NCBI GenBank assembly: GCA_003232185.1
Contig: QIMC01000373.1
Coordinates: forward strand, 1 to 36,969
Source: Flammeovirgaceae bacterium
GTDB taxonomy: Bacteria > Bacteroidota > Bacteroidia > Cytophagales > Cyclobacteriaceae
Length of the DNA: 36,969 nucleotides
Direction of reading: 5' to 3'
In this document: positions 21,368 to 36,969 of the stretch, piece after piece
How positions within the stretch are numbered: position 1 is the first letter of the stretch
Layout of the letters: every line of letters begins with the position of its first letter
Program-made: the position numbers and the translations under genes
The notes under the pieces: generated by a model
The model's input: the letters and a program-made list of their open reading frames with translations, nothing else
The model's database searches: none
Told to the model about the DNA's origin: nothing

Positions 21368-24300
21368 ATGACACCTTGGTTGGGATATAGCGAATTGATA
21401 GGCAAATTACAGGCGTATAAGCGTAAGTACTATCTAAACAAACTGATCAAAGGAGGCTTGCTTGCGCTTGGAATTCTGCTATCAAGCTATATTCTAATTA
21501 ATTCACTTGAATATACGGTTAGATTTAGTTCTCCGGTACGGGCATTTTTGCTTTTCGGTTTTCTAGCCCTTGTAACCTGGGCTATCTATCATTGGATCAT
21601 TATCCCGGTCTGGAAACTTTTTACCATCTCTCATCAAATAAGCAACGAAGAAGCTGCCGATCAGATTGGACATTACTTCCCAAATGTTAAAGATAAATTA
21701 TTAAATACCATACAACTGTATCAATTAAGTGATGACGAAAATACCTTAATTCAAGCCAGTATCTTACAAAAAACCAGTGAGATTTCAACTGTTCCCTTTA
21801 TTGATGCCGTCAACTTTAAAGAAAATAGAAGATACCTCAAGTACTTGTTATTCCCCATGGCTATAATATTGATGGTACTTCTGGCTGCCCCTCAATTGTT
21901 CACCGAAAGTACTCCTCGGATTTTAAATTTCAATAAATCTTATGCTCCGGTAGCGCCATTTCAGTTTAAAGTGTTAAACGAAGAACTTAGTGCTTTTAAA
22001 AATGAAGATTTTAAATTGAAACTCAGTTTTATTGGCAGCGTGGTTCCAAACACGGTTTATCTAAAAACCAAAGACCGAAGAATCAAAATGCTTCAAGAAG
22101 AAGACGGCAGTTTTGAGTTTACCTTTACCAAAATACAATTTGGATTTAATTTTGATTTTGAAGCAGCAGGCTTCAAATCCAACTCCTATTTTTTGGAAGT
22201 ACTTATTCGTCCAAATTTGAAAAGCTTTGATATTGATTTGAAATATCCGAAATATTTACAAAAACGAAATGAGTCTTTGCGAAATACCGGTAATCTTCAA
22301 ATACCGGAAGGTACTACGGTAAAATGGTCTTTCCAGACTTTGGACACTGATCGCATTTCTTTGACATTTCTGAAAGAAAACGATCGAGTTGAATTGTATC
22401 AATCAGATAATCAATTATATACCTTTCAGAAGCAAATAATGTATTCCGACCAATACAGATTAGATTTAGAAAATAAATTTGGTCAGAATAAGGAAGATAT
22501 TCAATATCAAATAAGCATTATTAGGGACATGTATCCTGAAATTACCATTAATCAATATAGAGACACTACTATGTTCAGCTATATGGTTTTTGGGGGAAGC
22601 ATATCTGACGATTATGGTCTTTCAAAACTTCTTTTGTATTACAAAGTAAAAAGAAAGGCTCAAAGCCAAGGTAAGAAGTTTAAGCAGATTTCTATTCCCA
22701 TTAAAACCAACAATCAGAATTACTACTTTCAATGGAATGTGGATTCTTTAAACATGGCGCATGGAGATCAGGTTGAATATTTTTTAAAGGTGTGGGACAA
22801 TGATGGGATAAACGGACCAAAGGCAACTAAAACTTTAAATTATTCATTCAAGGTGCCTTCTCGTCAGCAAATCAACGAAGCATTGGATAGAAGCTCAAAG
22901 AAAACTGAGGATCAAATCGACAAAAGCCTACAAGAGGCTAAGGAGTTGAATCAAAAGATTGAAGAAGTAGAGAACCGCTTAAAAAGCAAGAAATCTTTAG
23001 ACTGGCAGGATAAAAAGTTGCTTGAAGAAATTCTAGAGAAGAAAGATGCTCTTAGTAAGGAAATTAATCGACTCAAAGAGCTCAACCAAAATACCAATAT
23101 TCAAAAGCAACGATTTAATGCATACGACGAAAGTATTAAGACAAAAATCGATCAACTCCAGAAATTAATGGATGAGTTGCTTGATGAAGAAACCAGGAAA
23201 CTTTATGAAGAGTTACGAAAACTGCTTGATGAACAGCAAAACACAGATTCCTTTCAAGACCTTTTGGAGCAACTAAATTATAAAGAGCAAAATTTGGAAC
23301 AAGAATTGGAACGTACCCTTGAGTTGTTCAAGAGAATGCAATTTGAGCAAAACCTGGAAGAAACTATTAATGATATCAAAGAAATACAAGAGGATCAGAA
23401 ACAGCTCATGGATGAAACCGAAGATAAGTCCAATGAAACGGATAAGTTGTCTGAAGACCAATCGAACTTGATTGAAGACTTCGATAAACTACAAGAATCC
23501 ATTGATGATCTCCGCGAAAAGAATCAAGAGCTGGAACATTCACAAATGTTTGAGGATACTTCTGAGCAAGAACAAAATATTGATAATAGTATGAAGGAAA
23601 GCCTGGAGCAGCTTGAAAATAACAAACGAAAGCCTGCTAAAAAGGCCCAGCAACAATCCCTTGACAACATGAAGCAGTTAAGTCAAAAATTACAACAAAT
23701 GCAAAGTGGTATGGAAATGGAGATGATGCAGGAAAACCTAGACAACCTAAGAGATATTGAGGACAATCTTATCAAATTGTCTTTCGATCAAGAGCGTTTG
23801 ATGAAAGAATTCCAAAGTCTGAATCAAAGCGATCCAAGGTTTATTCAGCTGTCTCAGGAACAATTAAAGCTTAAAGACGATGCCAAAATTATTGAGGACA
23901 GCCTACTATCATTGGCCAACCGAGTTTTTCAAATAAAATCATTCGTTACCAGAGAAGTAAAAGAAATGAATGAGCACATGGATCAGAGCCTGCAGGGATT
24001 AAAGAAACGAAATAAATCACAATCTATTAGTAATCAACAGCTTACGATGACATCCGTCAATAATCTTGCACTTCTTTTAGGAGATGTGCTCCAGCAAATG
24101 CAGCAACAAATGGCCATGGCTAAAGGGGGCAAGCCCAAGAAAGGGCAAAAAAATGCGCCTGGTATGAGTCAGCTACAGCAGCAATTGAATCAACAAATTG
24201 AAAATTTGAAAAAAAGCGGAAAGAGCGGGAGAGCTTTAAGCGAGGAATTAGCTAAACTTGCAGCACAGCAAGAGATGATTCGCCGGGCACTACAAGAAGC

Positions 24301-24661
24301 TGAACATGGATTTAAGCAGCTTGGAGAAGATGGGAAGAAGGGCAACCAGGATATTATTGAAAAAATGGAGCAAACGGAAATGGATTTAGTAAACAAACAG
24401 ATTACTAATGAAACTCTAAAACGCCAACGAGAAATACTAACCAGATTGCTTGAAGCGGAAAAGTCAATCAGAGAGCGGGAGCTTGATAAAGCCCGTGAAG
24501 CACAGCAGGCTCGAAAGAAGGAAACAAAGATACCTCCAGAATTCATTGAGTACTTAAAAGCTAAAGAAAAGGAAATTGAATTATTGAGAACAGTTCCTCC
24601 CAAACTTAATCCTTATTATAAACAAGAGGTAAACGATTACTTTAAACGATTAAACAATTAA
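21368..24661 (+). CDS. DUF4175 family protein: N-terminal membrane segments and long Gln/Glu/Lys-rich coiled coil
   Basis: 1097 aa, hydrophobic N-terminal segments, long coiled-coil from about residue 500 ('EEVENRLKSKKSLDWQDKKLLEEILEKKDALSKEINRLKELNQ'). Confidence 0.82.
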   Translation: MTPWLGYSELIGKLQAYKRKYYLNKLIKGGLLALGILLSSYILINSLEYTVRFSSPVRAFLLFGFLALVTWAIYHWIIIPVWKLFTISHQISNEEAADQIGHYFPNVKDKLLNTIQLYQLSDDENTLIQASILQKTSEISTVPFIDAVNFKENRRYLKYLLFPMAIILMVLLAAPQLFTESTPRILNFNKSYAPVAPFQFKVLNEELSAFKNEDFKLKLSFIGSVVPNTVYLKTKDRRIKMLQEEDGSFEFTFTKIQFGFNFDFEAAGFKSNSYFLEVLIRPNLKSFDIDLKYPKYLQKRNESLRNTGNLQIPEGTTVKWSFQTLDTDRISLTFLKENDRVELYQSDNQLYTFQKQIMYSDQYRLDLENKFGQNKEDIQYQISIIRDMYPEITINQYRDTTMFSYMVFGGSISDDYGLSKLLLYYKVKRKAQSQGKKFKQISIPIKTNNQNYYFQWNVDSLNMAHGDQVEYFLKVWDNDGINGPKATKTLNYSFKVPSRQQINEALDRSSKKTEDQIDKSLQEAKELNQKIEEVENRLKSKKSLDWQDKKLLEEILEKKDALSKEINRLKELNQNTNIQKQRFNAYDESIKTKIDQLQKLMDELLDEETRKLYEELRKLLDEQQNTDSFQDLLEQLNYKEQNLEQELERTLELFKRMQFEQNLEETINDIKEIQEDQKQLMDETEDKSNETDKLSEDQSNLIEDFDKLQESIDDLREKNQELEHSQMFEDTSEQEQNIDNSMKESLEQLENNKRKPAKKAQQQSLDNMKQLSQKLQQMQSGMEMEMMQENLDNLRDIEDNLIKLSFDQERLMKEFQSLNQSDPRFIQLSQEQLKLKDDAKIIEDSLLSLANRVFQIKSFVTREVKEMNEHMDQSLQGLKKRNKSQSISNQQLTMTSVNNLALLLGDVLQQMQQQMAMAKGGKPKKGQKNAPGMSQLQQQLNQQIENLKKSGKSGRALSEELAKLAAQQEMIRRALQEAEHGFKQLGEDGKKGNQDIIEKMEQTEMDLVNKQITNETLKRQREILTRLLEAEKSIRERELDKAREAQQARKKETKIPPEFIEYLKAKEKEIELLRTVPPKLNPYYKQEVNDYFKRLNN

Positions 24662-24673
24662 AGCGGCCCATAA

Positions 24674-25078
24674 ATGAACTCCATCAAACTTGAAATTCCA
24701 TCACTCACGGAGAATATTAGAATAATTGAGAGTTTCATTGATAACGCAAAAGACAAGTACAATATCAATGACGATATTTATGGAAATATTATGATCGCGG
24801 TAACGGAATCAGTTAATAACGCCATCAAGCATGGCAATGCACTTCAAAACAATAAAAATGTAACCATTAGTCTGAACCTGGAACAAGACATTATCACTTT
24901 TACCGTTCAAGATCAGGGGCCCGGCTTTGACTTTCAGAATCTTCCTGATCCAACGGCTCCGGAAAATATTGATAAACCTGGAGGAAGGGGCATTTTTTTA
25001 ATGAAACATTTAGCTGATGAGGTAAAATTCCGAGATCACGGCCGATTAGTTGAATTGCGCTTCTACGTAAACAAGTAA
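24674..25078 (+). CDS. Anti-sigma-factor-like ATP-binding protein (RsbW/SpoIIAB-type HATPase)
   Basis: 'IMIAVTESVNNAIKHGN' N-box and 'VQDQGPGFDFQNLPDP...GGRGIFLMKHLADEV' G-boxes. Confidence 0.92.
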   Translation: MNSIKLEIPSLTENIRIIESFIDNAKDKYNINDDIYGNIMIAVTESVNNAIKHGNALQNNKNVTISLNLEQDIITFTVQDQGPGFDFQNLPDPTAPENIDKPGGRGIFLMKHLADEVKFRDHGRLVELRFYVNK

Positions 25079-25080
25079 GT

Positions 25081-25491
25081 GTGATTGAATTTTTTAGTGA
25101 AGACATTGAATACGCTCCCCAAACGACCAATGAACTAGTAAATTGGATAACAACAGTTGTAGAAAACGAACGTCATATTGTTGGCGACATTAATTTTATC
25201 TATTGCTCCAACTCTTATCTGTTAAACATAAATCAAACCTACTTAGGCCGCCATACCTATACAGACATCATTACTTTTGATCAAAGCACTAGGACAAATG
25301 TTATTGCCGGTGATATTTATATAAGCATCGACCAGATAAGAAGCAATGCTAGCAAGTACCAGGAATCTTTCGATAAGGAACTTAAAAGAGTAATGGTCCA
25401 TGGGATATTGCATCTATTAGGGTATAATGACAAGTCTGTAGAAGAACAACAGGAAATGAGCAAAAAAGAAGAAGCTTACTTATCTTTGTAA
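25081..25491 (+). CDS. ybeY: Endoribonuclease YbeY (rRNA maturation)
   Basis: 'GDINFIYCSNSYLLNINQTYLGRHTYTDIITFD' and zinc motif 'HGILHLLGYND'. Confidence 0.96.
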   Translation: MIEFFSEDIEYAPQTTNELVNWITTVVENERHIVGDINFIYCSNSYLLNINQTYLGRHTYTDIITFDQSTRTNVIAGDIYISIDQIRSNASKYQESFDKELKRVMVHGILHLLGYNDKSVEEQQEMSKKEEAYLSL

Positions 25492-25497
25492 TTCTAA

Positions 25498-25513
25498 TAT
25501 TCCACGTGAAACA
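25498..25513. promoter_or_regulatory. parS-like site 1 (TATTCCACGTGAAACA)
   Basis: 15/16 to the bacterial parS form TGTTnCACGTGAAACA, in the ybeY-mnmG gap. Confidence 0.8.
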
Positions 25514-25528
25514 TTCCAAAGAATAAAG

Positions 25529-25544
25529 TGTTCCACGTGGAACA
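25529..25544. promoter_or_regulatory. parS-like site 2, perfect 16-bp palindrome TGTTCCACGTGGAACA
   Basis: Exact self-reverse-complementary 16-mer matching ParB-binding consensus; 15 bp after site 1. Confidence 0.88.
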
Positions 25545-25550
25545 TACTAA

Positions 25551-27422
25551 ATGAACGTTATGTTTCCCGAATACGATATTATAGTTGTAGGTGCCGGACA
25601 CGCCGGTTGTGAAGCTGCTGCTGCTGCTAGTCAAATGGGTTCAAAAGTATTATTGGTCACAATGAACATGAATACCATTGCTCAAATGTCATGTAATCCA
25701 GCCATGGGTGGAGTAGCAAAGGGACAAATCATACGAGAAATTGATGCTCTGGGAGGGCAATCAGGAATAGTAGCAGATCATTCAATGATTCAATTCAGAA
25801 TGTTGAATAAATCAAAAGGACCGGCAATGTGGAGTCCCAGAACTCAAAATGATCGTCAAATGTTTGCTCAAAAATGGAGACAAGTACTTGAAGAAATACC
25901 CAACATAGATTTCTGGCAAGAAATGATTACCGGAATCATCACTAAAGAAGATCGCATACTGGGTGTAAAAACGGGTATGGGTCTTGAAATTTTAGCAAAA
26001 TCAGTAATTCTAACCAATGGCACATTTCTAAATGGAGTTATCCACATCGGAGAAAAGCAATTTGGCGGTGGAAGAACCGGTGAAAAAGCCTCCACAGGTA
26101 TTACAGAGCAATTGCAGCAACTAGGATTTGAATCCGGTAGAATGAAAACCGGAACTCCACCAAGAATAGATGGCCGATCATTAAATTATTCATTAATGCA
26201 AAAACAACCTGGAGATAAAAATCCAGGTAAATTTTCTTATTTGGACAACCCCATAATTTCCGAACAAAGAAGCTGCTATATAACCTATACCAACCCTGAA
26301 GTACACAGACTATTAGAAACCGGATTTTCAAGATCCCCTATGTTTAATGGGCGAATAAAAGGTATTGGCCCTAGATACTGTCCATCAATAGAAGATAAAA
26401 TCAATAGATTTGCTGAAAGAAACCGCCACCAAATTTTTGTGGAACCAGAAGGATGGAATACCGTTGAAATTTATGTTAATGGATTCTCTACTTCATTACC
26501 TGAAGAAGTTCAGTATCAAGCTCTTAGGAAAATACCGGGATTCGAAAATGTAAAAATGTTCAGGCCTGGTTACGCAATTGAATACGACTTCTTCCCTCCT
26601 ACTCAACTAAAAACCACCTTGGAAACCAAACTTATCCACAATCTTTACTTTGCTGGCCAAATAAACGGTACAACTGGATATGAAGAAGCTGCTGCTCAAG
26701 GACTTATAGCTGGTATAAATGCTCATAGAAAACTTCAGCAAGAAGAACCATTAATACTAACACGATCACAAGCCTATATAGGTGTTCTTATTGATGATTT
26801 GATAAATAAAGGGACAGAAGAACCTTATCGTATGTTTACCTCAAGAGCAGAATTTCGAATCTTACTAAGACAAGACAATGCAGACCTACGTCTAACACCA
26901 ATAGGGTACAAACTTGGATTAGCTTCAGAATTGCGTTTAAATAATGTAACCAATAAAGAAAAAGCAGTAAATAAATTAATGCAGGACTTTAAGCAATATA
27001 AATTTCAACCAAATGAAATTAATCCAAAATTAGAAGTGCTACATACTTCACCCATTAAAGAAAAAACCTCTGTATATCAACTACTTAAAAGGCCTGAACT
27101 ATCTGTTAATCATTTAGTTAATATGAATAAAGGTTTATCCTTACCTTGGACTGGTTACTCTACGGAAACCACAGAGCAAGCAGAAATATTAATAAAATAT
27201 GAAACCTATATTGAAAAGGAGAAAAAACTAGCAGAAAAAATTCAAAGCCTGGAATCTTATAAAATCAAATCCTCCTTAGACTACCAGAAAATCTCTGCAC
27301 TGTCATCGGAATCCAGGGAAAAGCTTAGAAAAATTAAACCCTCAACTATTGGACAAGCCTCTAGAATTAGTGGGGTATCACCTGCCGACATTTCAGTCCT
27401 AATGGTATTTCTAGGAAAATAA
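25551..27422 (+). CDS. mnmG: tRNA uridine-5-carboxymethylaminomethyl modification enzyme MnmG (GidA)
   Basis: '[23 protein letters not shown]', '[24 protein letters not shown]', '[10 protein letters not shown]', '[25 protein letters not shown]', '[22 protein letters not shown]'. Confidence 0.98.
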
Positions 27423-27424
27423 AT

Positions 27425-28300
27425 ATGTGTATAAAAATTGAAGCTTGTCCCTTATGTAAAACCACAACCTATACACACTTATATCAAATTAAAGACTATT
27501 CCGTTTCTAACGAAACATTCTCTCTAGTTACTTGTAACAACTGTTCAATGGTCTATACCAATCCCAGACCATCCAAACAAAACTTGCAGCAATATTATGA
27601 ATCAAGTAATTATATTTCCCATGCTGAAAAAAGTCAAAACCTAACTGATCGAATATACTATTTGGCCAGGTATTTTATGTTACGACAAAAATTAAGATGG
27701 ATAAAAAAAATACTTAATTCAAAAGGTCGTGTTTTAGACTATGGGTGTGGAACTGGATCATTCATATCCCTGCTACTAAAAAGAAAGTGGGATGCCTGGG
27801 GCATAGAACCAAATGCTCAAGCCAGAAATACAGCTAATCATCATGCCTCAAAACATATTTTTGACAGTTTGGAGCACTTACCTCAAAATCAATTTAATGT
27901 AATCACTTTGTGGCATGTCCTCGAACATGTTTTTGACCTTGAATCTGTAATGAATGAACTACTAAAGCGTCTTACAAGTTCTGGATATATTGTAATTGCT
28001 GTTCCGAATTGTTCCTCTTATGATGCAAAATATTATAAAGAACAATGGGCCGCATATGATGTTCCTCGTCATCTTTTTCATTTTACCCCTGAGACAATGA
28101 AACTTTTAGTAAAGAAATATAAATTGCACCTGACTAAAATTATTCCTTTGAAACTAGATGCCTTCTATATAAGTATCCAAAGTGAAAAATACCGTAATGG
28201 ATCCTTTTTTAAAGGATTGTATCATGGTGCAAAATCAAATATCCTTGCACACAAAAACCCCTCGACCTATTCAAGTTTGGTATATGTATTAAGAAAATGA
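27425..28300 (+). CDS. Class I SAM-dependent methyltransferase with N-terminal zinc ribbon
   Basis: 'CPLCKTTTY...TCNNCSMVYTNPRP', 'RVLDYGCGTGSFISLL', 'VITLWHVLEHV'. Confidence 0.92.
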   Translation: MCIKIEACPLCKTTTYTHLYQIKDYSVSNETFSLVTCNNCSMVYTNPRPSKQNLQQYYESSNYISHAEKSQNLTDRIYYLARYFMLRQKLRWIKKILNSKGRVLDYGCGTGSFISLLLKRKWDAWGIEPNAQARNTANHHASKHIFDSLEHLPQNQFNVITLWHVLEHVFDLESVMNELLKRLTSSGYIVIAVPNCSSYDAKYYKEQWAAYDVPRHLFHFTPETMKLLVKKYKLHLTKIIPLKLDAFYISIQSEKYRNGSFFKGLYHGAKSNILAHKNPSTYSSLVYVLRK

Positions 28301-29934
28301 AACAATCCTGGTTACTTATTTTTCTTATTACAGCCTGTTCTAATCCCATCCCTCCTACCGGTGGTCCAAAAGATTTAGATCCCCCGATTTTAATTAATAC
28401 TGTACCTGAAAATAAAACCCTGAATTTTACTGGTTCCGAAATCTCAATGGAATTTGATGAGTATATCAAAGAAGAGAATATTTTAACTCAATTAATGATC
28501 ACTCCAAATCTGAAGGACGTGTATAGCTATAAGATAAATAGGAATACATTTATTTTAACCTTCGAAAGTCCTCTTGATAGCGCCACAACCTATACGTTAA
28601 ACTTTCGAGAAGGACTAAAAGATATTACGGAAGGGAATGTACCCCCTAATCTAACATTTGTATTTAGTACCGGAACATTTCTAGACTCCGCTTCAATACG
28701 AGGTGTAGTGCGTTCATTGATGACTAATAAGATTTTAGAAGATATAACTATATCTCTTTACAATGATCCCGATACAATAACCATATTTAATGGCCCTCCA
28801 CGTTATAGTACACTTTCTGATAAAGAAGGTCACTATACCATTGAAAATATTAAAAATGGAAACTATACTTTATACGCGCTGAATGATGAAAACAGTAATT
28901 TAAAGCTAGAATCCAGATCTGAAGGATATGGCTATATTAAAAACCCCTTGGTCCTTAACGATTCAATGCCTTCACAAGATCTATTTATCTATAAACTCGA
29001 CACACGTCCTATCGTGTTGCAAAATAGTCGTCCATCAGGCAAAAATTTCGATTTAAAATTCAATAAACCTCTTGCACGATATCATCTATTAACCGATGAT
29101 CAATCAATAATTTCAAATCTGATCGATGATAACAAATCATTAAGAATTTATTTTAATGAAACAATAACCGATAGCCTTGGATTAAAATTTATTGTAGAAG
29201 ATAGTTTACTACAAACCCTGGATTCTCTTGTTTATATAAAATTTGAAAAATCCACTAAAAAACCAGATAAGTTTAATTTTAAATTTCGCCTTAATAACGG
29301 AGCGGTTGATAAATTATGGTCTACCAGCATTAAATTTAACAAACCCATTGCGTATATAAATTATGACAGTATATACTTCAAATTTGATAGTCTACTTCAT
29401 CTTCCTGTCAATGATTCATTAGTTACTTTTAATTCAAATAAAGATGAAATTTTAATTTCAATAGACTTTGATCAAGTATTCAAAAATGATTCAATTCTTA
29501 GTAAATGGAAAGAACCATTTAATTTTAATATTTCCAAAGGAAGCATTATTAGTGTAGAAAATGACACATTGAGCGCTATAGATAAAGACTATACCTTTAA
29601 AAACCCCAAAGATTTTGCTACCATTCGAGGAAACATAACCACTGCATCAACTTCCTATTTTATACAACTAGTTAATCCAAAATTCAAAATAGTTGAAGAA
29701 ATTAAAATTAATTCTTCAACTGAATCCACTTTTGAATTTATCCATATAGCTCCTGGCTCCTATAGTATTCGTGTATTAGTTGACGAAAATAATAATGGCA
29801 TTTGGGATCCAGGAAATATTCTAATAAAAGAAATGCCTGAAAAAGTTTTTATATTTTTTCATGCAAATGTTAATAGTCAAGAAATAAAACTGCGAGCAAA
29901 CTGGGAACAAACAGGACTAGATATAACTTTTTAG
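28297..29934 (+). CDS. Ig-like (Big_5/SbsA-type) domain lipoprotein
   Basis: Lipobox 'LITACSNPIPPTGGPKDLDPP', 'ISMEFDEYIKEENILTQLMITPNLKD', 'YTLNFREGLKDITEGN'; 4-bp overlap with the preceding methyltransferase gene. Confidence 0.88.
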   Translation: MKQSWLLIFLITACSNPIPPTGGPKDLDPPILINTVPENKTLNFTGSEISMEFDEYIKEENILTQLMITPNLKDVYSYKINRNTFILTFESPLDSATTYTLNFREGLKDITEGNVPPNLTFVFSTGTFLDSASIRGVVRSLMTNKILEDITISLYNDPDTITIFNGPPRYSTLSDKEGHYTIENIKNGNYTLYALNDENSNLKLESRSEGYGYIKNPLVLNDSMPSQDLFIYKLDTRPIVLQNSRPSGKNFDLKFNKPLARYHLLTDDQSIISNLIDDNKSLRIYFNETITDSLGLKFIVEDSLLQTLDSLVYIKFEKSTKKPDKFNFKFRLNNGAVDKLWSTSIKFNKPIAYINYDSIYFKFDSLLHLPVNDSLVTFNSNKDEILISIDFDQVFKNDSILSKWKEPFNFNISKGSIISVENDTLSAIDKDYTFKNPKDFATIRGNITTASTSYFIQLVNPKFKIVEEIKINSSTESTFEFIHIAPGSYSIRVLVDENNNGIWDPGNILIKEMPEKVFIFFHANVNSQEIKLRANWEQTGLDITF

Positions 29935-30309
29935 GTTGTAATAATCACGTGGATAAACTGTGGCATATTCATTAATTTTTTGTGGATAACTAACAAACTT
30001 TTCAAAAATAAATTATCCTGCTTCCCCAACGTTGATAAAAAGAACTTTGTTATATGTTATCAACAAACTAATAAACCTAAAATTTTTGAAACAATCTTAT
30101 CAACAAATAAATAATAATTATAATCAATCTCTTAATTGTTTATTAATCAATCTCTTACATGTTCATAATATGTTAATACCTATTGAGTTTATCCATAATA
30201 AGTGCACAATAGAGAATTACAAGAATTATTTATGATTATTATCCACTGTTTCCACAACATAGTAATTAATAATAATTAATTTACTTAAAGGTATACTATT
30301 AAACAGCGT
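29935..30309. other. Candidate chromosomal replication origin (oriC): DnaA-box cluster plus AT-rich unwinding element
   Basis: DnaA-box-like 9-mers: 29948-29956 (CGTGGATAA), 29981-29989 (TGTGGATAA, perfect), 30030-30038 (CGTTGATAA), 30057-30065 and 30097-30105 (TTATCAACA), 30189-30197 (TTATCCATA), 30239-30247 (TTATCCACT), 30309-30317 (TATGGATAA). Very AT-rich core, no convincing CDS, G/C skew switch. Confidence 0.8.
30121..30157. repeat. 14-bp direct repeat TAATCAATCTCTTA (30121-30134 and 30144-30157) inside the candidate oriC
   Basis: Two exact copies with a 23-bp period in the AT-rich segment. Confidence 0.9.
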
Positions 30310-32163
30310 ATGGATAACCTGCAAAAAGGTCTACTTGTTCTATTAATTTGCCTTTCTGGTATATTGGCGACTCAAGCACAGGATGTACAAAAAATTGAGC
30401 TTGCAAACGCCTACTATAAACAAGGTGAAATAGAGAAAGCCCGGGTACTACTGGAGGATCTTTCCAAAAAACCAAAGAATATTCCTCAAATTCACTCCCG
30501 TTATTTACAGGTGTTAGCCCAATCAGGGGCATTCGATGAAGGTGAAAAATATCTAACACGACTTGTAAAACAGTATCCGGAAATAATACAATATCAACTA
30601 GATCTGGGTATACTGTACCGTAAGGCTGGAAATGATGCTTTAGCTATTCAATACATTAAACAAACTTTGCGTAGAATCAGACATCATAAATATCAAATTC
30701 TTTCAGCAAGTCAGTATTTGTACAATAAATATGAAGTAGAACTAGCATTATACGGTTATCAGATAAGTCGTGAACAGGAACGAGAACCTTTGATGTATGC
30801 CTTAGAAATGGCAGAGATATATCGTAGGCTTAACAGAAAAGAAGAGATGGTACTTGAATATCTGAATTTTGCAAGTAGTAATCCCAGTAACATCAACTAT
30901 GTAAAAAATGTATTACAAAACTTACTGACAGAGGAGGAAGACCTGGTTAATCTGGAAGACCTATTGTATCAAAAGATCCAAAAGCACCCAAATGTCAACT
31001 TATACTCTACCTTACTGATTTGGGTCAATTTGCAGCAAAAAAATTTCTATGGCGCATTTGTTCAAGCCAGGGCTTTAGATAAAAAGGAAAAAGGTGCCGG
31101 TCAAAGAGTGTTGGAAATTGGAAAGATAGCCTTGGAAAATAAGGACTATAAGAATGCCATCTACATATTCAAATTTTTAATAAAGCAATATCATCAGGGC
31201 ATCAACTATGAACTAGCCAAACGGTACCTGATTAATTCCAGAGAAGAGCTGGTAAAATCTACTTTTCCGGTTGACATAGCAGAAATTGGTCATTTGATTG
31301 AGGATTACCAGGGTATGATAGAAGAAATAGGCATAAATCAGCGCACTCTTGAGGCACTTAGAAGTCAGGCATTGTTGTACGCCTTTTATATGAATAGAAA
31401 AGATTCTGCTATTAATATTCTTGCTAGAATAATAAAAACTCCTGGCGTAGGTATAACCTTAAAATCTCAGGCTAAGCTTGATCTAGGAGATATTTACCTT
31501 TTAAACGGGGAGCCATGGGAATCGACATTACTATATTCTCAGGTTGAAAAACTACAAAAAGATCAATCACTTGGATACGAAGCGAAACTGCGAAACGCCA
31601 AGCTTTCTTACTACAAGGGTGATTTTGAATTAGCTCAGGGTCATTTAAATGTGTTGAAACTGGCTACTTCCCGGGAAATTGCTAATAATGCCATGGCCCT
31701 AAGTCTATTAATTCAAGACAATACGATATTGGATAGTACAGATCAAGCCATGCAGGCTTATGCTCAAGTTGAATTGGATTTATTCCAAAACAAGTATGAA
31801 CTGGCATTGAAGCAACTTGATATTTTGATAGAGCTATACCCTGGTCATAGCTTGACTGATGAGATTCTGTGGTTAAAGGCAAACATATTTCTTGAATTAG
31901 GGTCATTTCTAGAGGCAATAGACCATCTATCCCGAATAGTTCAGGGTTTTGAATATGATATTCTTAGTGACGACGCCTACTTTTTGATGGGTAGTATTTA
32001 TGAAGATCATCTCGAAGACAACAACCAGGCCATGCGGATTTATCAAGATTTTCTAATTCGTTTTCCAGGGAGTATATATAGTGCCGAAGCGCGTAAAAGA
32101 TACAGGGCTCTGAGAGGCGATTTCAAAGTAGTACCAAATGCCATAGATGGTACCGTCAATTAG
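30310..32163 (+). CDS. Tetratricopeptide repeat (TPR) protein, exported
   Basis: Signal peptide 'GLLVLLICLSGILATQAQ', TPR-like helices ('ANAYYKQGEIEKARVLLEDLSKK', 'ALKQLDILIELYPGHSLTDEILWLKANIFLELGSFLEAIDHLSRIV'). Confidence 0.88.
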   Translation: MDNLQKGLLVLLICLSGILATQAQDVQKIELANAYYKQGEIEKARVLLEDLSKKPKNIPQIHSRYLQVLAQSGAFDEGEKYLTRLVKQYPEIIQYQLDLGILYRKAGNDALAIQYIKQTLRRIRHHKYQILSASQYLYNKYEVELALYGYQISREQEREPLMYALEMAEIYRRLNRKEEMVLEYLNFASSNPSNINYVKNVLQNLLTEEEDLVNLEDLLYQKIQKHPNVNLYSTLLIWVNLQQKNFYGAFVQARALDKKEKGAGQRVLEIGKIALENKDYKNAIYIFKFLIKQYHQGINYELAKRYLINSREELVKSTFPVDIAEIGHLIEDYQGMIEEIGINQRTLEALRSQALLYAFYMNRKDSAINILARIIKTPGVGITLKSQAKLDLGDIYLLNGEPWESTLLYSQVEKLQKDQSLGYEAKLRNAKLSYYKGDFELAQGHLNVLKLATSREIANNAMALSLLIQDNTILDSTDQAMQAYAQVELDLFQNKYELALKQLDILIELYPGHSLTDEILWLKANIFLELGSFLEAIDHLSRIVQGFEYDILSDDAYFLMGSIYEDHLEDNNQAMRIYQDFLIRFPGSIYSAEARKRYRALRGDFKVVPNAIDGTVN

Positions 32164-32201
32164 AACAATTGACATGATCTGATCCCCTGACTATATAGAA
32201 G

Positions 32202-32210
32202 TTATCCACA
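32202..32210 (+). promoter_or_regulatory. Perfect DnaA box TTATCCACA in an intergenic region
   Basis: Exact consensus 9-mer between the TPR gene and the UDP-sugar dehydrogenase. Confidence 0.65.
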
Positions 32211-32299
32211 TCTACCGCCTAATGGGGGAATTAAGGGGATTTGCTTGCCTTATTTGTAATAAATCAATATTTTATTTAAATATTTCAATATATTTTTCA

Positions 32300-32307
32300 T
32301 ACTTTTG
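32300..32307 (+). promoter_or_regulatory. Bacteroidetes-type -7 element TAnnTTTG (TACTTTTG)
   Basis: Exact TAnnTTTG match 33 bp before the dehydrogenase start, in AT-rich sequence. Confidence 0.5.
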
Positions 32308-32339
32308 CATTCAGTCATTTTTTAGATAAACACATTTCA

Positions 32340-33743
32340 ATGTCAAGAGTAACGATTTTTGGTGCAGGCTATGTTGGTGTTCCAACCGGAGCACATTTTT
32401 CTAGGACGCACAAAGTGACCATATATGACCCGGATACAGAGAAGATCAACACCATACGGAAAGTAATTGAAAATCAATCCGATGAACTGCATATTCACGA
32501 AAAGGATCTGATCGAGTTACTAAGGGAGAATCATGAAAATATCTTTTTGACCGATAATATAGAAGAGGCTTTAAAAAATCCAGAGTTCATATTTATAGCA
32601 GTGGGTACTCCTCCAAATGAAAAAGGGAGGGCAAACTTAAAATATATATACTCGGCTGCTGAGCAAATTGCAGCAAATCTTTCCAACGATTGTATCATCT
32701 TGAACAAAAGCACTGTACCTCCGGGCACAGCATATTTGGTGGAGGATATTATTGCCAAAGGATTAAAAAACAAGGTAAATTTTGCCGTGGGATCTTGTCC
32801 GGAATTTTTAGCGGAAGGGACTGCAGTAGAAGATTTAAGGACACCTGATAGAATCGTTTATGGTTGTGATGACCGGGAGGCTTTAGATAAGATCACACAC
32901 TTTTTCACCTTTTTACAGAGTAGTGATTCACTGTGCCCAATGACCACATTAAGCTCAGAACTAACCAAATACGCAGCAAATGCCATGTTGGCAACCAAAG
33001 TATCTTTTATGAATTCACTGGCTATTTTGTGTGATACCATCGGAGCTAATGTGCGGGAGGTACAGGAAGGTATAGGCAAAGATCAACGGATAGGAAGTAA
33101 GTTTTTGAATGCAAGTATGGGTTATGGAGGTAGTTGCTTCCCAAAAGATACCCAGGCAATAGCGGAATATGCAATATTACAAGATTCACCTCTTTCCATC
33201 ATTGAGTCTACGATCAAGATAAATGATGCTACCACAGAGTATTTTTACAATAAAATTGTCGAAGATTTTAAGGATAATCTAAGTGGTATCAATTTTGTAA
33301 TTTGGGGAATTGGCTTCAAAGCCCGCACAGATGATCTTAGAGAAAGCAAACCAGTAGAAATTGCTAAAAAACTAATGGACAATGGTGCTCATGTTCATAT
33401 ATATGACACCGTTCCAGGGGCATTGGTAAATTTTGAAAGAGAAAACTCAAAGTATTCTGGAAGCTTCACATTGCATCACGATCAATATGAAATGTTCTCA
33501 AATGAGATTGACGGGCTTATTATTGGAAACGAGCATGAAAAATTCAGAAATCCAGATATAGATAAATTGACCACTATGAAGCACAAGTACATCTATGATG
33601 GTAAGAACATTCTGAACAATTATCTGATCCGGTATTTGACAAAACTGCAATTCCAATACAAAAGTGTAGGTAAGGATTCAGTGGTAAACGGCCGGGACAG
33701 GACAAAATTGGTTAGCTTCCTGCAAGATAAGTATATGGACTAA
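32340..33743 (+). CDS. UDP-glucose/GDP-mannose dehydrogenase family protein (nucleotide-sugar dehydrogenase)
   Basis: 'VTIFGAGYVGVPTGAHF', 'IFIAVGTPPNEKG', 'STVPPGTA', 'CPEFLAEGTAVEDL', 'KYAANAMLATKVSFMNSLAILCD', active-site 'GYGGSCFPKDTQA'. Confidence 0.95.
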   Translation: MSRVTIFGAGYVGVPTGAHFSRTHKVTIYDPDTEKINTIRKVIENQSDELHIHEKDLIELLRENHENIFLTDNIEEALKNPEFIFIAVGTPPNEKGRANLKYIYSAAEQIAANLSNDCIILNKSTVPPGTAYLVEDIIAKGLKNKVNFAVGSCPEFLAEGTAVEDLRTPDRIVYGCDDREALDKITHFFTFLQSSDSLCPMTTLSSELTKYAANAMLATKVSFMNSLAILCDTIGANVREVQEGIGKDQRIGSKFLNASMGYGGSCFPKDTQAIAEYAILQDSPLSIIESTIKINDATTEYFYNKIVEDFKDNLSGINFVIWGIGFKARTDDLRESKPVEIAKKLMDNGAHVHIYDTVPGALVNFERENSKYSGSFTLHHDQYEMFSNEIDGLIIGNEHEKFRNPDIDKLTTMKHKYIYDGKNILNNYLIRYLTKLQFQYKSVGKDSVVNGRDRTKLVSFLQDKYMD

Positions 33744-34093: not shown

Positions 34094-36969
34094 ATGAAGT
34101 GGATCAATGATCGTAAATTATGGGCGCTAGCCCTAATAGCATCTACAGTAAGCTTTTCCTCCAATGGACAAAGCTTTACCGAAGTTGGCGCATTGCGAAA
34201 TGCACAAATTGGATCCGGATCAAAAGATGGTGGCCAAGCCTGGGCCGATTTCAATCAGGACGGATTCCTAGACCTGCTCGTAAACACCAACAATAATACA
34301 GGACGTTCTCGGCTGCTATATTGGAATAGTGGCACCAATCAGTATGACGATGTTACAGCAACTAATGCACCGGAGCTCTTGCTCAATACCTGTGAACGCT
34401 CAGCATTGGCAGGGGATTTCGATAACGATGGTGACATTGACTTCATGAGGAGTGCTGCAGGCCGGTTGGAGATATATGAAAACCTTGGTTCGGGCTCCGT
34501 TCCTGCTTATAGCTTTGTTATTAAGCAAGTATTCGTTCCAGCTACATTTACTATACCTGGTACCCAGACTGGAATGAACAATGAAGGTTTGGCCTGGATG
34601 GATTTCGATGGTGATGGAGATTTGGATGTGTATATGGAAGATCATCAATATGGCCAGGATATCTTAGAGAACGATGGAACTGGGTTTTTCACACATTATA
34701 CACCGGATAGTAACCCTCAGGGATTTCCTACTACCGGAACTTCGGGAGACTACTCAGTAACCGCTGACCTGGACAACAACGGGGATGTGGACATAGTAGC
34801 CCGCCGGCAAGGAACAACCGCAGCATTGAATCAAGTGGATATATTTATCAATAATAGCGATGGTACCTTTAGCCCAAATTCTACATTAAACCTGGATACC
34901 AGAAATAGCTTCAAAGGTGGGGTAGCTGTAGCAGATTTTGACAATGACGGTGATTTTGACTATTTCTGGACTAATAATGGAACTTCCCCTGCTAATGTTA
35001 CACATGTTATTGCCGAACAAACGGGATTGAACAGTGGAGTATTTGCCTTAGCTACCGTTACTATCACTCCGGCACCGTCCTGGACAGGTCAGCAAATTGA
35101 AGGGATAGCCATGGGAGATGTGAACAATGACGGAAAGGTAGATATCTTCCTGGCATCTGACGCTGCTCCCAACTACCTGTTAATAAATACTACTACTGGG
35201 GGCAATTTTAGCTTTATCCATCAAAATTCAGGAATTAACCTTGCAGGTGATGGTGAAGGTTGTGCATTTGGAGACTATGATAATGATGGTGATCTGGATC
35301 TATATGTTAACATCAGAAATGGGAATAACCAACTTTGGGAAAACGATCTGGGTGGGAATACGGACTATATAAAAGTTGAACCGTTGATTGATCTGGGTGG
35401 TGGTTTAACCCGTTCAGCAATTGGCGCCACCGTTGTGGTGGATCAACTGGGATGTACTGCTTTGCGTTTTATTCAGGAAGTTAGTGGGGGTGTAGGTCAT
35501 GGCTCACAAAATGATACCAGACTGCATTTCGGCTTGCCCGAAGGTCCAAATTTAAGATACAAGGTAACCGTAAGTTACGTGCGGCCAAATGGTGGGGCAC
35601 GGGTTGTTGTTGATAAGTACGTGATTCCTTCTGCACTTTCTGGACAAACCTTGCAAGTGTTGGATACCGATATTAGCGATCCTAATGCCAACCCGGTTGC
35701 TTCGGATGATAATTTCACTGTGGCCATGAACTCCACCAATAATGCATTGGATGTTCTTGCCAACGATACAGACCCTAATTCGGAAGATTTAACAATATCA
35801 CTATCAACTGGTGTTACACCCAATGGAGGAACCATATTTGTGAACGATAATGGAACCCCTGCTGATCCAACTGATGATTTTGTAGACTATACGCCGGCTA
35901 TTGGTTTTACTGGTGTGGATAACTTTGATTATGACATAACCAATCAATCAAGCTTTTGTTCATCCGCATCAGTCACCATAACTGTAAATACCCCTCCGAC
36001 AGGAGACGATAATACGGTATCAACACAAGAAGATGTAACCCATGTATTTACTGTTGCAGATTTTACAGTCAACTACAATGATGCCAACGGAGATCCGTTT
36101 ACTGGAATCCGTGTCACTGGTTTGGAGTCAGTGGGAAGTTTATTGTATAACGGTACGCCGGTAACCTTAAACCAGTTGATCAGTACTGCAGACATTGGCA
36201 GCGGGTTATTATCATTTGTGCCGGTGGCAGACCAAAACGGCAGCCCCTATGACAGTTTTGATTTTGAAGTAGGAGATGGGCTTAACTATAGTACCAGTAA
36301 TTACACCCTAACTGTCAATGTAACTTCAGTCAATGACCTTCCTTCAGGAGATAACAATACCGTATCAACTCCAGAAGACATCACTTATGTATTTGCCACA
36401 GCGGACTTTACTGTCAACTACAGCGATCCTGAGAGCGACCCATTCGCACAGATCCGGGTGACCAGTTTGGAGTCGGTGGGAAGTTTGGAGCTGAGCGGAG
36501 TGCCTGTAATTCTAAATCAGGTAATCAGTGCTGCAGACATTGGTATTGGGTTATTAACATTTGTACCAATTGCCAACCAGAGCAGCAGTCCTTACGATAG
36601 TTTTGATTTTGAAGTAGGGGATGGCAGTGATTTCAGTGCTGCTGACTATACGCTAACCATCAATGTTACCCCGGTCAATGATCCACCTACAGGAGATAAC
36701 AATACCGTATCAACCCCAGAAGACATCACTTATACATTTGAAGCTGCCGACTTTACGGTAGGCTATAGCGATCCCGAAGGAGATGCCTTTGCACAGATCA
36801 GAGTAACCAGTTTAGAGTCGGTGGGTAACCTGCTTTATATCGGCGCTCCGGTAACTCTAAATCAGGTAATCACCGCCAGTGACATAGGCAGTGGATTACT
36901 AACATTTGTACCGGTAGCTGGTCAGAGTGGCAGTCCTTATGATGGTTTTGACTTTGAGGTAGGGGATGG
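34094..36969 (+). CDS. Large secreted protein with FG-GAP/VCBS repeats, ASPIC/UnbV-like domain and tandem cadherin-like domains (3' end beyond window)
   Basis: ATG at 34094, signal-like 'LWALALIASTVSFSSNGQ', repeats 'ADFNQDGFLDLLV', 'GDFDNDGDIDF', 'MDFDGDGDLDVYM', 'GDYDNDGDLDLYV'; ASPIC-like 'IGATVVV...VSGGVGHGSQNDTRLHFGL'; then 115-aa repeats. Absent from the ORF track only because it has no stop in the window. Confidence 0.92.
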   Translation, partial: MKWINDRKLWALALIASTVSFSSNGQSFTEVGALRNAQIGSGSKDGGQAWADFNQDGFLDLLVNTNNNTGRSRLLYWNSGTNQYDDVTATNAPELLLNTCERSALAGDFDNDGDIDFMRSAAGRLEIYENLGSGSVPAYSFVIKQVFVPATFTIPGTQTGMNNEGLAWMDFDGDGDLDVYMEDHQYGQDILENDGTGFFTHYTPDSNPQGFPTTGTSGDYSVTADLDNNGDVDIVARRQGTTAALNQVDIFINNSDGTFSPNSTLNLDTRNSFKGGVAVADFDNDGDFDYFWTNNGTSPANVTHVIAEQTGLNSGVFALATVTITPAPSWTGQQIEGIAMGDVNNDGKVDIFLASDAAPNYLLINTTTGGNFSFIHQNSGINLAGDGEGCAFGDYDNDGDLDLYVNIRNGNNQLWENDLGGNTDYIKVEPLIDLGGGLTRSAIGATVVVDQLGCTALRFIQEVSGGVGHGSQNDTRLHFGLPEGPNLRYKVTVSYVRPNGGARVVVDKYVIPSALSGQTLQVLDTDISDPNANPVASDDNFTVAMNSTNNALDVLANDTDPNSEDLTISLSTGVTPNGGTIFVNDNGTPADPTDDFVDYTPAIGFTGVDNFDYDITNQSSFCSSASVTITVNTPPTGDDNTVSTQEDVTHVFTVADFTVNYNDANGDPFTGIRVTGLESVGSLLYNGTPVTLNQLISTADIGSGLLSFVPVADQNGSPYDSFDFEVGDGLNYSTSNYTLTVNVTSVNDLPSGDNNTVSTPEDITYVFATADFTVNYSDPESDPFAQIRVTSLESVGSLELSGVPVILNQVISAADIGIGLLTFVPIANQSSSPYDSFDFEVGDGSDFSAADYTLTINVTPVNDPPTGDNNTVSTPEDITYTFEAADFTVGYSDPEGDAFAQIRVTSLESVGNLLYIGAPVTLNQVITASDIGSGLLTFVPVAGQSGSPYDGFDFEVGD
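36002..36969 (+). repeat. 345-bp (115-aa) tandem coding repeat, 2 complete copies plus one truncated by the window edge
   Basis: Copies begin at 36002, 36347 and 36692 with 'GDDNTVSTQEDVTHVF', 'GDNNTVSTPEDITYVF', 'GDNNTVSTPEDITYTF'; each contains 'RVT(G/S)LESVG..L', 'LNQ(L/V)I', 'YDSFDFEVGDG' or a close variant. Confidence 0.95.

Follow-up and report, generated by a model that had tools for sequence, protein, structure and literature searches.

The origin of replication of E. coli lies near mnmG and not beside dnaA, and it directly abuts gidA (gidA/mioC). The oriC of Cytophaga hutchinsonii was reportedly cloned on plasmids by Xu and co-workers in 2012 and used there as a replicative origin (cited in PMC5891637). 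Among Bacteroidetes, oriC is commonly found far from dnaA, and the origin predicted for Prevotella intermedia is likewise located away from it (PMC4755523). In the flavobacterium Mariniflexile litorale, oriC has been predicted beside mnmG, in agreement with the skew according to the text of that study, the figure legend of which carries the two labels swapped relative to the text (PMC11278836). A basal unwinding system (BUS) is known from B. subtilis, and a wide occurrence among bacteria has been proposed for it; it is recognized by a DnaA box with at most 2 mismatches, a spacer of at most 16 bp and, after the spacer, three or more NAN triplets (PMC8287927).

The window analyzed here is a stretch of 36,969 nucleotides from a Flammeovirgaceae bacterium, and it contains an intergenic region that we take, with a probability of about 0.93, to be the chromosomal oriC of this Cytophagales-type bacterium. 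The reading is based on DnaA boxes, base composition, a conserved position, the strand skew of two relatives (G016 and G033) and a directional module of boxes and triplets. The region and its neighbors are as follows.

25551–27422, plus strand: mnmG (gidA), origin neighbor (TIGR00136, 853 bits)
27425–28300, plus strand: class I SAM methyltransferase gene, conserved neighbor
28297–29934, plus strand: Ig-like (Big_5) lipoprotein gene, left border of oriC; a relative is present in 113 of the 119 genomes searched in the class
29935–30309, no strand: predicted oriC, AT-rich and intergenic, with the DnaA boxes, flanked by the Ig-like lipoprotein and TPR genes
30310–32163, plus strand: gene of a TPR-repeat protein with a signal peptide recognized by eye, right border of oriC

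In the ORF list of the window, the Ig-like reading frame ends at 29934 and the TPR frame starts at 30310, and a check of the gap between them returned no ORF beyond short unsupported ones. The GC content of 29935–30317 is 23.5%, against 38.5% across the window, and the coordinates and the AT-rich, non-coding character given in a preliminary description of this DNA were thus right. A box at 30309–30317 extends over the TPR start codon, which leaves 30309 as the last non-coding position. An Rfam scan of 25000–33000 gave no match. The mnmG/gidA neighbor, absent from the preliminary description, was identified here; the genes upstream of the gap encode a DUF4175 protein, a histidine-kinase-like ATPase, YbeY, MnmG and the methyltransferase. 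All six genes to the left of the origin (21368–29934), mnmG included, are transcribed toward it and would therefore meet the leftward fork head-on, and the mnmG-methyltransferase-Ig portion of this layout is kept in relatives. At the far end of the window (35990–36969), imperfect DNA repeats about 330–350 bp apart, with motifs like ggagataacaataccgtatcaac, were seen by eye to run past the window end; they probably fall within a repeat-rich surface protein.

DnaA boxes were scored against the consensus TTATCCACA and counted at no more than 1 and no more than 2 mismatches. Seven boxes with at most one mismatch start at 29948, 29981 and 30309 on the minus strand and at 30057, 30097, 30189 and 30239 on the plus strand, and allowing two mismatches adds 30030 and 30160 (minus) and 30248 (plus), 10 in all. 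The eight boxes reported earlier fall between these two counts, while the single perfect box among them was confirmed. The gap (29935–30317) holds the densest DnaA-box cluster of the window, with the following elements.

29948–29956, minus strand: DnaA box TTATCCACG, 1 mismatch
29981–29989, minus strand: DnaA box TTATCCACA, perfect
30057–30065, plus strand: DnaA box TTATCAACA, within a 21-bp direct repeat (30054–30074 / 30094–30114)
30097–30105, plus strand: DnaA box TTATCAACA, in the other copy of that 21-bp repeat, at a distance of 40 bp
30121–30166, plus strand: two tandem 23-bp AT-rich repeats, TAATCAATCTCTTAATTGTTTAT / TAATCAATCTCTTACATGTTCAT
30189–30197, plus strand: DnaA box TTATCCATA
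30239–30256, plus strand: tandem DnaA boxes TTATCCACT-GTTTCCACA with 9-bp spacing, the box half of a candidate basal unwinding module
30260–30276, plus strand: DnaA-trio-like repeats TAGTAATTAATAATAAT (TAG/TAA), predicted first strand-opening site
30309–30317, minus strand: DnaA box TTATCCATA, over the TPR start codon

The 23-bp repeats at 30121–30166 are a possible accessory unwinding element; as the unwinding element itself they were rejected, none having been seen by eye in the regions of congeners. Further perfect or TTATCAACA boxes flank the origin on both sides (26038, 26632, 32202, 33890, 35608 and 35914), and 10 of the 139 exact TTATCMACA sites of the genome sit on this 37-kb contig. 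A halo of extra boxes around the origin was unseen in G016 (7 against a mean of 6.1) and in G033 (4 against a mean of 7.5), and the idea was dropped.

The genome of the window is split into 488 contigs, and whole-chromosome skew was read in two single-contig relatives. Within the window itself the local skew is noisy, the cumulative raw skew being deepest near 11 kb with a local minimum near 30.5 kb. G016, a 5.49-Mb genome of the same family, was sampled in sixty 20-kb blocks over 0–3.96 Mb. The first 27 sampled blocks, the last of which holds the gap (1.74–1.76 Mb), all have negative raw GC skew; of the 33 that follow, 32 have positive skew and one is close to zero. The gene-corrected cumulative minimum over these 60 blocks is the block with the Ig/TPR gap, and the gap has 7 boxes in 500 bp, compared with at most 3 per block elsewhere in the sample. 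G033, with 3.33 Mb, is from a different family of the same order and was sampled in 80 blocks. Its raw GC skew was noisy and dominated by gene orientation, with a cumulative minimum at 2.13 Mb; being uninformative, it was replaced by third-position skew corrected for gene direction, with 60 block-sign randomisations as the null. With this correction the fit puts the origin at 1.64–1.80 Mb and the terminus close to 0.03 Mb, with a score of 0.0317 where the null reached at most 0.018; the Ig gene and gap, at 1.746 Mb, are no more than about 0.1 Mb from that origin. The G033 gap has fewer near-perfect boxes than other gaps and is outside the densest clusters of that genome.

The gene dnaA lies at 4.83 Mb in G016 and at 0.983 Mb in G033, 0.76–3.1 Mb from the gap. 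An origin adjacent to dnaA was considered and rejected, the dnaA loci having only 0–2 scattered boxes and no cluster. The earlier statement that the window has no dnaA also holds, as the contig is without a dnaA domain and the sole Bac_DnaA match of the genome is on another contig (C101); the surprise implied by calling the origin "not adjacent to dnaA" does not, because such distance is common in Bacteroidetes (PMC4755523). In G016, three weak matches to the Bac_DnaA domain with identical scores occur in 243-aa frames (G016:C1:2591131, 3013256 and 4580529), and they are perhaps IstB-like transposon ATPases.

Near the right border of the gap, the tandem boxes and the triplets form the candidate unwinding module, which occurs once in the window, at 30239. 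Three bases beyond the tandem boxes (30239–30256) comes TAGTAATTAATAATAATTAA. The box TTATCCACT at 30239, with a 16-bp spacer and four NAN triplets (AAT TAA TAA TAA), fits the BUS description, and an AT-rich predicted unwinding element stands beside the boxes (23.5% GC, triplets after the tandem pair). Members of the same genus share the element (TTATCCACCGTATCCACA-A-TATAATAATGAATAATAAG at locus L085, for instance), and their origin regions are overall only about 56–59% identical to that of the window. The pattern was searched in 61 regions, with the duplicates L082 and L083 out and G016 and G033 in. As the triplets contain a one-base slip, the first patterns proved too strict, and a looser one was picked after the sequences were seen, so that the resulting count is descriptive: tandem boxes followed by TA triplets occur in 24 of the 61 regions, all directed toward the TPR gene and 0 in the opposite direction, against a mean of 0.02 in shuffles. 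Shuffles and the opposite strand gave nearly no matches to the looser pattern, and 37 of the 61 regions, G016 and G033 among them, do not fit this pattern, which is still strict.

These data bear on the possibility that the cluster only titrates DnaA, like E. coli datA or the DnaA-box clusters of B. subtilis, and is not a start site. Dense boxes are by themselves no proof of initiation, and the extra TTATCMACA boxes in the flanks of the window would suit titration; however, the site falls at the skew switch of G016 and near the fitted origin of G033, the box-plus-triplet module is present at it, and neither the sampled parts of G016 nor the dnaA loci hold a competing cluster, so we consider this reading improbable.

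The position of the cluster is conserved. A scan for MnmG recovered 80 loci, mainly from Cytophagales-type Bacteroidota and some from Saprospiraceae, and the Ig-like protein was present in 38 of 39 relatives. The order mnmG, methyltransferase, Ig-like lipoprotein, boxes and TPR gene recurs in about 60 Cytophagales-type loci, and at loci with both an Ig and a TPR gene, boxes are almost without exception densest in the gap that separates the two. Single-sequence searches did not find the arrangement at the mnmG loci of Saprospiraceae. Two loci from records titled Heimdallarchaeota (L006) and Bifidobacterium breve (L066) show the Cytophagales-type mnmG-methyltransferase-Ig neighborhood, and these are probably mislabelled or contaminated MAGs. 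Across 61 syntenic regions, a set in which the window counts along with its copy L082, and the identical L002 and L083 both count, box density is higher in the gap than in the flanks in every region (means of 13.5 and 0.48 per kb). The 61 gaps contain 351 boxes, compared with a mean of 10.4 (maximum 59) for scrambled 9-mers, and at least 3 boxes are found in 54 of them. This enrichment in syntenic gaps, the G016 skew switch and the origin fitted for G033 support the oriC assignment of the preliminary description.

Under another reading, the region would be a promoter of the TPR gene that DnaA regulates and that takes no part in initiation. This would account for the box over the TPR start codon, but a promoter does not need about 370 bp and boxes in both orientations, congeners retain the cluster although the sequence around it has diverged to about 58% identity, and the skew of G016 and G033 also speaks against it; we regard this reading as very improbable. 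First-order Markov sequences of matched composition (n = 5000) had a mean of 0.19 boxes (maximum 4) at 1 mismatch and of 2.24 (maximum 9) at 2 mismatches, so the cluster exceeds chance, as is characteristic of a bacterial oriC (7 against 0.19 expected). Low GC makes AT-rich 9-mers commoner, but none of the 5000 sequences reached the observed counts of 7 and 10 and the cluster recurs in about 60 loci, so a chance cluster in AT-rich DNA is a negligible prospect, already refuted by conservation.

With oriC as the preferred reading, DnaA would be expected to bind the region, to open it at the triplets and to start replication there in this particular species. DnaA, encoded elsewhere, would bind at least 7 boxes over about 370 bp, and a filament of ATP-DnaA would grow rightward from the tandem pair at 30239–30256 onto the TAG/TAA triplets at 30260–30276. 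The AT-rich duplex would then open beside the TPR gene, the replicative helicase would be loaded, and two forks would depart in opposite directions. It is possible, though we would not assume it, that in Cytophagales-type bacteria the origin has one common, fixed address (mnmG-methyltransferase-Ig-like lipoprotein-oriC-TPR) and a directional tandem-box/TAA-TAG module that always faces TPR, an order-wide architecture that may be undescribed. The site serves as a dependable marker of the origin in fragmented Cytophagales-type genomes; such a marker is required for estimating growth rate (peak-to-trough) and for constructing oriC plasmids where genetic tools are few, and the roughly 60 origins form a natural set on which the box-plus-triplet opening model can be tested beyond Firmicutes.

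Compared with E. coli, the locus is similar in that mnmG is near the origin and dnaA does not adjoin it, but here two genes lie between mnmG and the origin and mnmG is transcribed toward it. The oriC of Cytophaga hutchinsonii comes from the same order. As in the B. subtilis-type BUS, tandem boxes, a short spacer and NAN triplets (TAG/TAA) of the candidate module follow one fixed direction; unlike it, the boxes are 8–9 bp apart (9 in the genus of the window), and the trio run of the window is broken by a one-base slip. In contrast to predicted Bacteroidota origins, the gap lies between Ig-like and TPR genes about 2.5 kb from mnmG, in an uncultured species whose genome is not closed. The Prevotella oriC, of the DoriC/Ori-Finder type, is a box cluster at a skew transition far from dnaA (PMC4755523), as is the counterpart of the gap in G016, and the window shares the mnmG neighbor with the Mariniflexile oriC, which agrees with the skew (PMC11278836). 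Since dnaA-distant and mnmG-adjacent origins have been published, the site is therefore a well-supported but ordinary new example.
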